Below are positions 1,227 through 5,500 of a DNA stretch of 64,000 nt, piece after piece. The stretch's first letter is position 1. The number at the start of each line of letters is the position of its first letter. The DNA is from Cupriavidus sp. MP-37 (lineage in GTDB: Bacteria > Pseudomonadota > Gammaproteobacteria > Burkholderiales > Burkholderiaceae), in contig NZ_CP085344.1 in assembly GCF_020618415.1 (NCBI RefSeq), forward strand, positions 2,751,001-2,815,000, given 5' to 3'. A program made the translations under genes and the position numbers. Under the pieces are notes generated by a model. That model was not told the origin of the DNA, searched no databases, and worked only from the letters and a program-made list of their open reading frames with translations.

Positions 1227-2012
1227 TCAGTCTTCCAGGCGGCGGCGGAACACCCAGCGGGTCGCATCCGAGGCCGCCTTGTCGAAGGCATAGCCGTCTT
1301 CGGCGAAGCGCTTGAGTTTCTCCGGCTCGGTCACGCGGTGCGTCACCGCGTAGCGCGCCATGGTGCCGCGCGCCCGCTTGGCGTGGAACGAAATGATCTT
1401 GTAGCGGCCGCCCTTCCAGTCCTCGAACACCGGCGTGACGATGCGCGCCTGCAGCACCTTGGGCCGCACCACCTTGAAATACTCTTCCGAGGCCAGGTTG
1501 ACCAGCACCGGCGCGCCCTCCTGCCGGAGCCCGGCCATGTCGGCGTTGAGCATCTGCGTGACGTCGTCGCCCCAGAACGCGTACAGGTCCTTGCCGGCGG
1601 CATTGTCCAGGCGCGTGCCCATTTCGAGCCGGTACGGCTGCATCCAGTCCAGCGGGCGCAGCACGCCGTACAGGCCGGACAGGATGCGCAGGTGCTTCTG
1701 CGCAAAGGCAAGCTCTTCGGGCGCCAGCGATTTCGCGTCGAGGCCGTCGTAGACATCGCCGTTGAAGGCCAGCACCGCCTGCTTGCTGTTGGCCGCGGTG
1801 AACGTCGGCGACCAGTCGGCGTAGCGCGTCACGTTGAGCACCGCGAGCTTGTCGGAGATGTCCATCAGCGCGCCCACGTCCTGCGGCGCCAGCCGGCGCA
1901 GGCGCTCGATCAGCGCGGCGGAACGGTCGATGAAGCGCGGCAGCGTGTGGGTCTTGATGCGGGCGGGAGTCTCGTAGTCCAGCGACTTGGCGGGAGACAA
2001 AACGATGAGCAT
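1227..2012 (-). CDS. yaaA: Peroxide stress protein YaaA (DUF328)
   Basis: A 261-residue protein with the family N-terminus [14 protein letters not shown], the central [22 protein letters not shown] segment split over a helical region, and a C-terminal basic stretch. In Escherichia coli, YaaA is induced by OxyR and limits intracellular free iron during hydrogen peroxide stress. The length matches the family (about 257-260). It starts 49 bases from the divergent PIN-domain gene, so both promoters must share that short gap. No OxyR site was resolved by eye. Confidence 0.92.
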
Positions 2013-2061
2013 GGCAAAATCGCGGCATTAGCCAAGGACAAACCAGCCCAGATTGTAGCGA

Positions 2062-2595
2062 ATGCGCCTCGACACCACCGCAACCAACCCGCCCGCCGGC
2101 ACCTCCGACCGGCCCGCCGGCGTCACATCTGCGCCGCGCGTGGTGCTCGACTCCAATATCTGGGTCGACCTGCTGGTGTTCCAGGACCCGCACGTCGAGC
2201 CGATCCGCGCCGCGCTGGAAGCCGGCACCATCGCCCCGGTGATCCGCGCCGACTGCCGCGAGGAACTGCGCCGGGTGCTGGCCTATCCGCAATTTGCCCG
2301 CTTCGACGTCGATATCGGCGCGGCGCTGGCCACCGTCGACCGCCTCGCGCGCCTGGAAGCGGCGCCGCCGCAGGCCGACAGCGACGCGATTCGCCTGCCG
2401 CGCTGCAAGGACACCGACGACCAGAAGTTCGTCGAGCTGGCCCACTTTGCCGGCGCCGCCTGCCTGGTATCGAAGGACAAGGCGGTGCTCAAGCTGCGCA
2501 GCCGGCTGCGCCGCAGCAGTGGCGTCGAGGTGATGACGCCGCCGGCCTTCGGCGCCTGGCTGGCCACGCTGGACCCGGCCGCCGATCCGCGTTAG
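2062..2595 (+). CDS. PIN-domain protein, COG1569-type putative toxin
   Basis: A 177-residue protein. After a ~25-residue Pro/Thr-rich leader, a PIN fold begins at VVLDSNIWVDLL. Acidic residues that would bind metal appear in DSN, in REELRRVL and in DTDDQKFVEL. PIN proteins are Mg2+-dependent ribonucleases and many are toxins of toxin-antitoxin pairs. No small antitoxin-like gene lies next to it: upstream is divergent yaaA and downstream is an aminotransferase. It may therefore be an orphan or a housekeeping nuclease. The family call is firm; the toxin role is only inherited from the family name. Confidence 0.82.
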   Translation: MRLDTTATNPPAGTSDRPAGVTSAPRVVLDSNIWVDLLVFQDPHVEPIRAALEAGTIAPVIRADCREELRRVLAYPQFARFDVDIGAALATVDRLARLEAAPPQADSDAIRLPRCKDTDDQKFVELAHFAGAACLVSKDKAVLKLRSRLRRSSGVEVMTPPAFGAWLATLDPAADPR

Positions 2596-2691
2596 GGCCG
2601 ATCCGCTTTAGAATGGCGGCTCGCGGCGCCGCGCTGCGCGCTGCCGCACGCCTGACCGCCTACCGTTCCCATCGCATCGACACCCTGCCCC

Positions 2692-3864
2692 ATGTCCGCA
2701 GACACCACGCTCGCCCCACTGACGCCGCCGCCGTCGCGCCTGCCCGGCGTCGGCACCACCATCTTTACCGTGATGTCGGCGCTTGCCGCCGAAAAGAACG
2801 CGGTCAACCTGGGCCAGGGCTTCCCGGACTTCGACTGCGACCCCAGCATCGTCGATGCGGTCGCCGGCGCCATGCGCGCCGGCCATAACCAGTACCCGCC
2901 GATGGCGGGCGTGCCGCGCCTGCGCCAGGCCATCGCCGCCAAGATCGCCAGCCTGTATGGCCACCAGTACAGCTGGGACACCGAGATCACGGTCACCGCG
3001 GGCGCCACCCAGGGCATCCTGACCGCGATCCTGTGCGCGGTGCATCCGGGCGACGAAGTCATCGTGCTGGAGCCGTGCTACGACAGCTACCTGCCCGCGA
3101 TCGAACTGGCCGGCGCCACCGCGGTGCCGGTCGCGCTGGAAGCGCCGGCGTTCCGCGTGCCCTTCGACAAGCTCGCCGCCGCGATCACGCCGCGCACGCG
3201 CATGATCCTCGTCAACACGCCGCACAACCCCACCGGCACGATCTGGCGCGCGGCCGACATGGACCAGCTGGCGCAGATCCTCGCCGGCACCGACATCCTG
3301 CTGCTGTCGGACGAGGTCTACGAGCATATGGTCTACGACGGCCAGCAGCATGAATCGGTGTCGCGCCACCCGGAGCTGGCGCGCCGCAGCTTCGTCATCT
3401 CCAGCTTCGGCAAGACTTATCACGTGACCGGCTGGAAGGTCGGCTACGTCGCCGCGCCCGCCGCGCTGATGGCCGAGTTCCGCAAGGTGCACCAGTTCAA
3501 CGTGTTCACGGTGAATACGCCGGTGCAGCACGGCCTGGCCGACTACATGGCCGATCCCGCCCCCTACCTGCAGCTGCCGGCGTTCTACCAGGCCAAGCGC
3601 GATTTTTTCCGTGCGGGGCTGGCGGGCTCGCGCTTCAAGCTGCTGCCGTCGGACGGCACGTATTTCCAGTGCGTCGATTATTCCGCCATTTCAGACCTGA
3701 GCGAGGCCGACTTCGCCATGTGGCTGACACGCGAGATCGGCGTGGCCGCGATTCCGGTCTCGGCGTTTTACTCGCAGCCGCGTGAATCGGGCGTGGTGCG
3801 GTTCTGCTTCGCGAAGAAGGAAGAGACGCTGGCGTTGGCGCTGGATAGGTTGGGGAAGCATTGA
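2692..3864 (+). CDS. PLP-dependent class I/II aminotransferase (YbdL/methionine aminotransferase-like)
   Basis: A 390-residue fold-type I aminotransferase. The N-terminus has VNLGQGFPDFDC, typical of the kynurenine/methionine aminotransferase branch. NTPHNPTGT and LSDEVYEHMVYDG form the cofactor pocket. SSFGKTYHVTGWKVGY carries the Schiff-base lysine, and VRFCFAKK ends the small domain. YbdL-type enzymes transaminate methionine with 2-oxo acids. The start ATG at 2692 is close to the family N-terminus. It is 96 bases downstream of the PIN gene and followed by a clear terminator. Confidence 0.9.
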   Translation: MSADTTLAPLTPPPSRLPGVGTTIFTVMSALAAEKNAVNLGQGFPDFDCDPSIVDAVAGAMRAGHNQYPPMAGVPRLRQAIAAKIASLYGHQYSWDTEITVTAGATQGILTAILCAVHPGDEVIVLEPCYDSYLPAIELAGATAVPVALEAPAFRVPFDKLAAAITPRTRMILVNTPHNPTGTIWRAADMDQLAQILAGTDILLLSDEVYEHMVYDGQQHESVSRHPELARRSFVISSFGKTYHVTGWKVGYVAAPAALMAEFRKVHQFNVFTVNTPVQHGLADYMADPAPYLQLPAFYQAKRDFFRAGLAGSRFKLLPSDGTYFQCVDYSAISDLSEADFAMWLTREIGVAAIPVSAFYSQPRESGVVRFCFAKKEETLALALDRLGKH

Positions 3865-3930: not shown

Positions 3931-3977
3931 GTTTGCTTCCCTCTCCCGCGCGCGGGAGAGGGGCCGGGGGTGAGGGC
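3931..3977 (-). repeat. REP palindrome, first of a pair
   Basis: Core CTCTCCCGCGCGCGGGAGAG, followed on the plus strand by GGGGGTGAGGGC. It is inverted relative to the split copy that starts at 4021. The 43-base linker contains, on the minus strand, GGAGCATCAACGAAGT, which recurs between other REP pairs in this window. Confidence 0.85.
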
Positions 3978-4020
3978 AGGCGGTGGCATGCCGACGACCT
4001 TTACTTCGTTGATGCTCCGG

Positions 4021-4036
4021 CCCTCACCCCAACCCT
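4021..4036 (+). repeat. Left half of REP interrupted by the insertion sequence
   Basis: CCCTCACCCCAACCCT is the left flank of a REP whose right half resumes at 5475. Joining 4036 to 5475 restores the consensus found at 10661-10698 and 24610-24653. Confidence 0.88.
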
Positions 4037-4039
4037 TAT

Positions 4040-4052
4040 ATGAACACCGCCC
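4040..4052 (+). repeat. Subterminal inverted repeat, transposase-distal end
   Basis: ATGAACACCGCCC, an exact reverse complement of 5455-5467. Confidence 0.92.
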
Positions 4053-4316
4053 CGGTTGCAAGGTTTTGGAACCAGCTTGACGTCGCAGGATGGGGCTGCT
4101 GCCTTATATCCGGCCTGGAGCGAGTACTTGTTCTCGCGGGCCACAATGGAAGCTGCTGAGAACCGTCCTCAATCTCTCGCCACGGGCTTGTAAGCCGCTT
4201 GGGTTGGGGCAGGTTTGGGTTCCCACGGTCCTACCTGTTTCGTCATTGCTGTTTCTTGCCTGTGCAGCCGTGAAGGTTAATCAAGCGCTGGTTAAGGGAA
4301 GGTGATGCCCCCCGGC
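4053..4316 (-). ncRNA. Candidate seek/bridge guide RNA region of the IS1111-type element
   Basis: This ~264-base non-coding stretch lies between the transposase stop and the terminal repeat. In IS1111 elements the guide RNA is known to come from the non-coding region downstream of the transposase. The minus-strand transcript would contain CCCCAACCC (complement of 4201-4209), identical to the target bases next to the insertion point. About 20 bases further along it has GCGAGAGA (complement of 4173-4180), which is 7 of 8 identical to the other side of the REP. RNA ends and fold are not established here; the call is inference from position and these matches. Confidence 0.5.
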
Positions 4317-5339
4317 TCAGGCCGGGCGCAAGCTCACATGTCCGGGATCGTATTGGCGCCCATGGGCCATTAATGCCCAGGCTGTCCGGGCGATCTTGTT
4401 GGCCAGCGCCACGACCACCACGTTCTTGGGGCGCCGCTGCAGCATGGACAGTGCCCAGGCCGGCGGATGTTTGGTGCGCGTGAGCATCGTGCGTCCGGCG
4501 TTGACCAACTGTCGTCGCACGTAAGCGTCGCCGCGCTTGCTGATGTGACCGAGCCGTACGTTGCCGCCCGTGCCGGTCTGCGCGGGAACCAGTCCCAGGC
4601 TTGCAGCGAAGGCTCTGCCTGAGCGGAAGGCCTGGGCACAGCCCATGGTCGCGACCAAGGCGGTGGCGGTAATGGGGCCGACGCCGGGAATCTTCTCCAC
4701 GATCTGCGCGGCCGGATCAGACCTCAGCCATTCCTGGAGGTCACGCTCAACCAGTTGGATCTGTTCGTCGAGTTCGCGCAGCGCACAGACCTGCCGCTCC
4801 AGCGCGCGCATCAACAAGGGCGGTACGACCTGAGCGACCTCAGCCCAGCGCTGGCGCAGCTCGGCCCGGAAGGCCAGCCGCCCCGTGCGGAAGTGCAGGC
4901 CATATTCGCCCAGCAGCCCGCGCATCTGGTTGCTCTGCCGGGTGCGCGTCTTGACCAGCCCGTCCCGTATACGATGCAACGAGAGCACAGCCTGCTGCGC
5001 TTCGGTCTTGACCGACACGACCGGCATGTCGGGTTGCCGGGCTGCAGTCCAGATGGCTCGGGCGTCCGCCGCGTCGTTCTTGTTCGTACGCACGAAGGCG
5101 CGTACGTAACCCGGGTTGAGCAACACCACTTCGTGGCCAAGGCTCTGGATCTTGCGCGCCCACCAGTGGGCACCGCCACAGGCCTCCAGTGCGATCTGCC
5201 CAGGCTGGCAATTGGACAGGAATTCGATGAGCGCGGTGCGGCTGAATCGCCGGTTCTGGGGCTTCCCCGTAATGGGGTCTATCCAGTACATCTGGAACAC
5301 TGTCTTTGCAATGTCCAGCCCATATGTCATAGCATTCAT
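4317..5339 (-). CDS. IS110/IS1111-type DEDD transposase
   Basis: A 340-residue recombinase. The N-terminal RuvC-like DEDD domain shows GLDIAKTVF, then EACGGAHWWAR, then NKNDAADARAIW. The C-terminal Tnp20 domain shows IPGVGPITATALVA, followed by GRAFAASLGLVP and ISKRGDAYVRRQLVNAG, which contains the serine-bearing helix region. IS110 enzymes excise the element as a circle and reinsert it by guide-RNA-directed recombination. I chose the ATG at 5339 because GAGGAGA sits just upstream; an upstream in-frame extension to 5390 lacks such a site. The gene is intact, so the element may be active. Confidence 0.92.
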   Translation of the reverse strand: MNAMTYGLDIAKTVFQMYWIDPITGKPQNRRFSRTALIEFLSNCQPGQIALEACGGAHWWARKIQSLGHEVVLLNPGYVRAFVRTNKNDAADARAIWTAARQPDMPVVSVKTEAQQAVLSLHRIRDGLVKTRTRQSNQMRGLLGEYGLHFRTGRLAFRAELRQRWAEVAQVVPPLLMRALERQVCALRELDEQIQLVERDLQEWLRSDPAAQIVEKIPGVGPITATALVATMGCAQAFRSGRAFAASLGLVPAQTGTGGNVRLGHISKRGDAYVRRQLVNAGRTMLTRTKHPPAWALSMLQRRPKNVVVVALANKIARTAWALMAHGRQYDPGHVSLRPA

Positions 5340-5454
5340 TTGGGCTCTCCTCGACCTTGAGTGTTGGATCGAACTTTCACTCTGGCACATCGATGCCGTC
5401 GGTCAAGCGAGAGCCCCTTTGTTTTCTAGGCCGCGGCCTGGCTTGGCGGTAGAT

Positions 5455-5467
5455 GGGCGGTGTTCAT
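5455..5467 (-). repeat. Subterminal inverted repeat, transposase-proximal end
   Basis: GGGCGGTGTTCAT, an exact reverse complement of 4040-4052. Confidence 0.92.
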
Positions 5468-5474
5468 TCCATCT

Positions 5475-5500
5475 CTCCCGCAAGCGGGAGAGGGAGCACA
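5475..5500 (+). repeat. Right half of the interrupted REP
   Basis: CTCCCGCAAGCGGGAGAGGG continues the REP broken at 4036 by the insertion sequence. It ends 20 bases before the glutathione transferase stop codon. Confidence 0.88.

Follow-up and report, generated by a model that had tools for sequence, protein, structure and literature searches.

The minus strand of positions 4053–4316 of the window, the 64,000-nucleotide stretch of Cupriavidus sp. MP-37 DNA that was analysed, very probably encodes the guide (seek/bridge) RNA of an IS1111-type insertion sequence, carrying two target guides and two donor guides that would aim insertion at REP sequences. The whole IS lies on the minus strand at 4037–5474 (1438 bp), an extent supported by 11 near-identical copies in the genome, by the empty REP site and by terminal extensions common to relatives. 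All 11 copies occupy the same arm of the REP palindrome in a single orientation, at GGGAG^AGGG(T/C)(T/C)GGG. The uninterrupted REP site, GGGAGAGGGTTGGGG, is present in 84 exact copies in this genome and a version with one extra G in 6. These counts place the ends of the IS at 4037 and 5474 and define the target, in the transposase orientation, as GGGAG^AGGGTTGGGG; they also rule out a junction with four G residues in the empty site. The left half of the target, the palindrome CTCCCGCAAGCGGGAG, is at 5475–5490, and the right half, which reads AGGGTTGGGGTGAGG on the transposase strand with the core AG first, is at 4022–4036. A second, diverged REP copy lies near the IS at 3938–3983 of the window, and tandem REP runs spaced approximately 173–193 bp apart are found in the genome (for example G000:C2:808797-809344).

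The ends of the element have an organization shared with its relatives. On the transposase (minus) strand, a 7-bp left-end extension, AGATGGA (5468–5474), begins with the core AG, and a 3-bp right-end extension reads ATA (4037–4039). Internal to these are subterminal inverted repeats at the right (4040–4052) and left (5455–5467) ends that match each other at 13 of 13 positions and that relatives have in the same place. The AG thus starts both the IS and its right flank. Among the 79 distinct elements, 71 begin with the same dinucleotide as their right flank; of the eight that do not, some seem to have had their boundaries misplaced. Eight left-end dinucleotides were found among relatives (AG, CG, AA, GA, TG, CA, GG and TA).

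The transposase gene (4317–5390, minus strand) encodes 357 amino acids and was identified with Pfam and NCBIfam. The protein matches both DEDD_Tnp_IS110 and Transposase_20 of Pfam, a feature of the IS1111 group, and scores 322.7 bits against a cut-off of 140 with the NCBIfam model for IS110 family RNA-guided transposases; residues 207–349 show sequence similarity to the transposases of ISCro4 and IS621, whose structures are solved. Members of the IS1111 group carry a 3-bp right terminal extension. A 7-bp left terminal extension and the C-terminal motif GL-P----S(t)G are described for the group in PMC11187229, and the translation, read by eye, contains GLVPAQTGTG. Non-coding DNA amounts to 264 bases downstream of the gene (4053–4316) and to 64 bases upstream (5391–5454). 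Subterminal repeats, 7-bp and 3-bp extensions and a long downstream non-coding region are all present. The element is best read as an IS1111-group member with a bridge-type guide RNA.

An earlier note on this DNA had proposed paired short guides in the region downstream of the transposase gene, and the gene does end at 4317 on the minus strand, beside that region. Its 9-base match, GGGTTGGGG, is present at 4201–4209 and corresponds to the putative right target guide (minus strand; RNA CCCCAACCC), which is complementary to positions +1 to +9 of the REP-site top strand. The second match, TCTCTCGC at 4173–4180, agrees at 7 of 8 bases with TCTCTCCC of the right flank as described, but the left target guide is better placed one base along, at 4174–4181 (minus strand). 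There the RNA, GG(C)GAGAG, would equal positions −5 to +1 of the REP-site top strand with one bulged C, matching 7/7 when the bulge is allowed and 6/8 ungapped. When the non-coding region (277 nt with the right-end repeat) was dinucleotide-shuffled, 9-mer matches arose in 3.2% of shuffles for a 20-nt flank and the expected strand and in 10% for a 40-nt flank and either strand; some 7/8 match to the left half-site arose in 64%. Taken alone, the two target matches are thus weak, lying near chance level, and it is the comparison with relatives that raises them above it. Among the 11 copies of the element itself, the right guide fits all nine bases of the target in 9, with one mismatch in L009 and two in L007 (loci are given L numbers).

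A covariance model (R1) built for the RNA covers 4090–4238 on the minus strand, which we take as the modelled core of the bridge/seek RNA. This model gave 12 hits in the genome, 11 of them inside full elements; the twelfth (L161, 25.5 bits) has no transposase nearby, lies in what appears by eye to be coding-like DNA, and was taken as chance. A search of Rfam for curated families gave no match, the sole match to an E-value of 1 being mir-9201 at 21.4 bits against a gathering score of 95.5.

Relatives were drawn from a reference-genome scan (best 80 of 125), from a family-wide search that matched 227 of 398 genomes (30 loci taken, then 5 more) and from plasmids (105 records matched, five regions taken). 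Their ends were placed by a motif-guided finder; a first automatic finder was rejected, because in many loci it had mistaken REP palindromes or unrelated repeats for the ends. Out of 132 loci with a transposase match, 33 had no repeat pair and 6 were dropped for low score or short flanks, leaving 93 elements, of which 79 were distinct in RNA or flank. When the 93 elements, which include identical copies, were searched freely, the longest match to the right half-site reached at least 7 bases in 66/93 own pairings compared with 1044/8412 swapped pairings, and the corresponding numbers for the left half-site were 43/93 and 1751/8412. At fixed alignment positions in the 79 distinct elements, 62.9% of cells matched for the right guide (28.2% when shuffled) and 87.5% for the left guide (33.7% when shuffled), with neither value reached in 1000 shuffles. 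The observed target-guide values were likewise equalled in 0 of 2000 shuffles when one element was kept per 85% cluster (47 elements), and in 0 of 2000 for both guides within the AG-core group alone (15 elements). In a position-by-position table the excess lies chiefly on a single diagonal per target guide, with some spill into the neighbouring register for the right guide. Covariation with targets across the 79 elements thus supports the paired-guide reading, and the bases singled out in the earlier note do change in step with the target among homologues inserted elsewhere. The nearest relative, L012, whose transposase is 75% identical, shares the left half-site and has a different right half-site; its guide TGCTCCCCT fits its target AGGGGAGCA at 9/9 bases, and its left guide fits at just 4/7.

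Departures from agreement were followed row by row. The right guide matched at no more than 4/9 bases in the fixed register in 29 of the 79 rows, 23 of which reached at least 7 in the free search: 20 of the 29 are register slips, shifted by 1–3 bases near the expected place, and in three (L033, L062 and L065) the best match is elsewhere. The six rows below 7 in the free search are L041, L058, L076, L082, L087 and L088. The outcome that would count against guiding, the same guide in front of a different target, was found in scattered cases only, namely the left half-site of L127, single bases in L094 and L123, and two loci, L097 and L105, that are artefacts of the end finder. L127 has the same left guide as L128, and this matches its own half-site at 3/7. 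A one-base guide variant among the Cupriavidus necator N-1 copies is in step with the target for L127, L128 and L122 and out of step for L094; the guide of L123 (strain KK10) fits its target through a G-U pair only. The ends of L097 and L105 were placed at an inner copy of the right end, which is followed by the guide-RNA tail, and their 5/9 matches are therefore artefacts. At the outer copy, the flank of L097 (AGTAACCAA) is a full fit to the guide TTGGTTACT, and that of L105 (GGACTGTGT) holds GACTGTGT of the expected AGACTGTGT; both loci stay uncorrected in every count. A ten-row extra check, for which 17 of 29 loci were unparsed, gave longest matches of 8 (L165), 9 (L168), 8 (L173), 8 (L178), 7 (L187) and 6 (L188) in six further places, and L162, L169, L170 and L177 were already in the set.

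The doubled ends are an observation in themselves. In L097 (near 2837–2915) and L105 (near 2827–2905) the last 68–70 bases of the element occur twice, joined at ATATAAG, the donor-guide/right-end motif, and the outer copy of L105 ends in ATATAGG. Recombination of the right end with the element's own donor guide could have produced this doubling, as could simple slippage.

A consensus structure was obtained with RNAalifold from 42 sequences (alignment A1). It contains 26 predicted pairs, 17 of them with compensatory change, which bears out the expectation in the earlier note of an RNA structure supported by covariation. Paired cells made up 97.0% of the total compared with 80.0% in shuffles, and double-change cells numbered 190 compared with 66.6, neither value being reached in 500 shuffles; the number of further pair types was equalled by 2 of 500. 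Sliding the partners by 1–3 columns abolished the pairing signal, a control that flatters the structure, which had been obtained from these very sequences. Folding of the region as a single sequence was not better than for shuffled sequences (z 0.82 and 0.01). The predicted target loop is closed by a stem (helix 2; 5′ arm 4218–4224, 3′ arm 4158–4164, both on the minus strand) with compensatory changes at all 7 of its pairs, and within this stem the target guides flank a small hairpin (helix 4; 4184–4198, minus strand) in which 3 of 4 pairs show changes on both sides. A further stem-loop (helices 5 and 6; 4112–4142, minus strand) is formed by stems that are conserved and partly covarying. The scaffold is, as judged from the alignment, a structured RNA.

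This last stem-loop separates a second pair of putative guides that were absent from the earlier note and that match the ends of the IS itself. The left-end donor guide (4145–4151, minus strand; RNA TTCCATT) is complementary to positions +2 to +7 of the left end, AGATGGAA, followed by a G-U pair. The right-end donor guide (4103–4109, minus strand; RNA ATATAAG) equals the last bases of the right end, ATATA, plus the core AG. The two donor guides would read the circle junction ATATA^AGATGGAA in the way that the target guides read their own site. With the core taken from the left end, the right-end donor guide equals the element's own right end plus core at 7/7 bases in 75 of 79 elements, across 14 end types (ATATAAG, ATATAAA, ACATACG, ATGTAGA, ACACATG, ATATAGA, ACAGATG, ATATACA, ATAGACG, ATAGAGA, ATATATA, ATAGATG, ACACACG and ATACATG). 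Its match fraction across the 79 elements is 98.9% compared with 72.9% when shuffled, and a weighted match of 97–100%, where 30–66% is expected, is found at the four positions that vary most. The left-end donor guide covaries more modestly (80.7% compared with 72.2%; 0 of 1000 shuffles). Within the AG-core group alone, 122 and 2000 of 2000 shuffles reach the observed donor-guide values; the donor guides are uninformative there because the ends hardly vary. We consider it likely that IS1111 elements use a two-loop bridge RNA with a donor guide that selection keeps matched to the IS end, with the right guide ahead of the left in both loops (the reverse of IS110), and with RNA reading of the two outermost subterminal-repeat bases. 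The covariation of the donor guides would lend comparative support on a point where published accounts of the IS1111 group differ.

The main alternative is a target-only seekRNA of 70–100 nt, in which the first loop alone guides, the transposase reads the ends through the subterminal repeats and 4145–4151 and 4103–4109 go unused. An 82-nt ISEc11 seekRNA with the target matches sufficed for transposition in the work described in PMC11187229, an account that leaves the end-binding domain open. Such an RNA would nevertheless leave unexplained why the right-end donor guide, always at one position in the RNA, tracks the ends, both core bases included, in 75 of 79 elements and 14 end types, and why there is conservation, and some covariation, in the stems that separate the donor guides. 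Selection on the donor-guide bases implies that some function needs them, and we regard the target-only arrangement as unlikely.

Two further explanations were considered. The RNA could serve mainly to regulate expression of the transposase, in the manner of Ssr9 in ISPpu9, an element also found in REP sites: as described in PMC8450116, ISPpu9 has a sense small RNA of approximately 180 nt downstream of its transposase gene, this RNA is presented as a sponge for an antisense RNA, and its deletion had little effect on transposition of an incoming element. A regulator, however, has no need of bases that vary with the insertion site and the IS ends, which makes a mainly regulatory RNA very improbable here; regulation and guiding are not exclusive of one another. 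Alternatively, the protein alone might recognize REP sites and the RNA matches be due to chance. Protein recognition was put forward in 2006 for certain transposases that target REPs, at a time before the guide-RNA work when site choice by IS110-family elements in REPs was credited to the transposase (PMC1525189), and it would suit the near-chance level of the two matches considered by themselves. The same RNA positions covary with targets across 79 elements, unmatched in 1000 shuffles, and protein-only targeting has already been refuted for the family, so that this explanation has almost no chance of being correct.

In the preferred reading, a bridge RNA with target and donor guides, the RNA would present from 5′ to 3′ the right target guide (4209–4201), the hairpin and the left target guide (4181–4174), all within the closing stem of the target loop, and then the left-end donor guide (4151–4145), the stem-loop and the right-end donor guide (4109–4103). 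Base pairing of the target guides would engage both strands of the REP DNA, flanking the core AG; the donor guides would do the same at the point where the ends of the excised circle meet (ATATA^AGATGGAA), for which the junction CATATA^AGATGGAATG is predicted. The DEDD transposase, holding the guide RNA, would exchange strands at the AG, with the consequence that the IS enters one arm of the REP palindrome in one orientation. The sequence matches, the covariation with target and ends, the covarying RNA structure and the site and orientation of insertion were observed directly in the sequences compared; transcription, binding by the transposase, the circular intermediate and strand exchange would operate as in the systems of PMC11187229 and PMC11208160. 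By eye, TTGCAA and TATAAG elements with a 15-base spacing were also seen at 4035–4061 of the window on the minus strand, pointing outward from the right end; at a circle junction they would face the transposase gene and the guide RNA.

The two arms of the REP palindrome offer a natural comparison. The arm that is used provides 84 uninterrupted sites, or 75 by a stricter pattern. The other arm, identical in left half, core and GG but continuing with AGNNC, occurs 108 times when the opposite arms of interrupted REPs are included; 0 of the 11 insertions are found there. By its base sequence the right guide is predicted to tell the two arms apart, and the left guide cannot. Use of a single arm is a prediction of the guide model, although the arms differ further out too. 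In having the top-strand match on the 5′ side of the bottom-strand match, the guides follow the order reported for IS1111 seekRNAs (PMC11187229).

Several other elements were encountered among the relatives. A different IS1111 element is inserted precisely within the right-end donor guide of guide-RNA genes belonging to other IS1111 elements, at GGCCGGATA^TA(A/G).. (L221/L231, L222/L232 and L225/L233, with L225 at about 1828–3230), and its transposase is approximately 45% identical to that of L043. Its own guides, GCAGACTTA (the complement of TAAGTCTGC) and GGATA+TA, read its site at 8/9 bases on the right and 7/7 on the left. The left end of this element occurs once each in 4 of 398 family genomes, in 3 of the 4 within guide genes, and in the fourth (L230) elsewhere, after ..CGGATA. 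The hosts in L231 and L232 look alike, and the insertions thus represent at least two independent events. From these sequences it appears to be an IS that its RNA directs into the guide-RNA genes of other ISs, and its site would be another agreement with the guide positions. L178 (1120–1815, minus strand), an internally deleted relative seen in one copy, has within approximately 700 bp a left and a right end, a piece of the transposase and the guide RNA, whose two target guides fit its flanks; it may be a non-autonomous element that carries its own guide. In L168/L227, L188 and L176 a guide RNA is accompanied by an intact right end, and the right flank fits (less well in L188); no transposase was found in the stretches of these loci that were examined. 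L125, L126, L193 and L195–L198 are fragments of close relatives with approximately 78–86% DNA identity, and such fragments occur in C. taiwanensis plasmids and in other genomes of the genus.

The RNA-guided IS1111/IS110 system is of a kind already known. In the IS621 bridge RNA, the left guide precedes the right guide. This order is in line with PMC11187229, which states that the IS110-type guide order is reversed relative to IS1111. As described in PMC11208160, the bridge RNA of IS621, a member of the IS110 group, resembles the RNA proposed here in its target and donor loops, in having the core dinucleotide in the guides and in working with a related DEDD transposase; it differs in lying upstream of the gene, whereas the present RNA lies downstream of its gene and has the right (top-strand) guide ahead of the left one in each loop. 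IS110-family REP targeting was described in 2006 (PMC1525189), and seekRNAs are reported in PMC11187229 for IS1111 elements that include ISPa11, which has a REP target and a top-strand match 5′ of the bottom-strand match. ISPa11 of Pseudomonas aeruginosa is thus like the present element, as far as its description goes, in IS1111 type, subterminal repeats, downstream non-coding region, two target guides with the top-strand match first, and REP target; its seekRNA was recovered with the transposase and sequenced, whereas the RNA here is a predicted one. The natural redirection between ISEc11 and ISXne4 (PMC11187229) parallels that between the present IS and L012, related elements in both cases having guides that differ to fit their targets; here the left half-site is shared, the right one differs, and both are by a REP-like palindrome.

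ISPpu9, as presented in PMC8450116, similarly occupies REP sites, its junction has AG, and a sense small RNA, Ssr9, is encoded downstream of the transposase gene, in the place expected of a bridge RNA. Ssr9 is described there as a regulatory RNA, and its reading as a bridge RNA would be our own. Orphan Ssr9 copies outside REP sites, with IS-end boxes at their flanks, may be guide-only mobile units. A literature search by title found no Cupriavidus IS1111 element with a REP guide among the matches listed, and we claim no priority for the donor covariation.

IS1111 elements are compact RNA-guided DNA insertion systems made of one protein and one short RNA. The present element and its relatives suggest a comparative answer on the donor guide, and if this answer is true, protein-only recognition of IS1111 ends would be an incomplete view. 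They also provide a natural pair, with transposases 75% identical, that has one half-site in common and the other different, in a setting where the genome offers 84 exact uninterrupted target sites.
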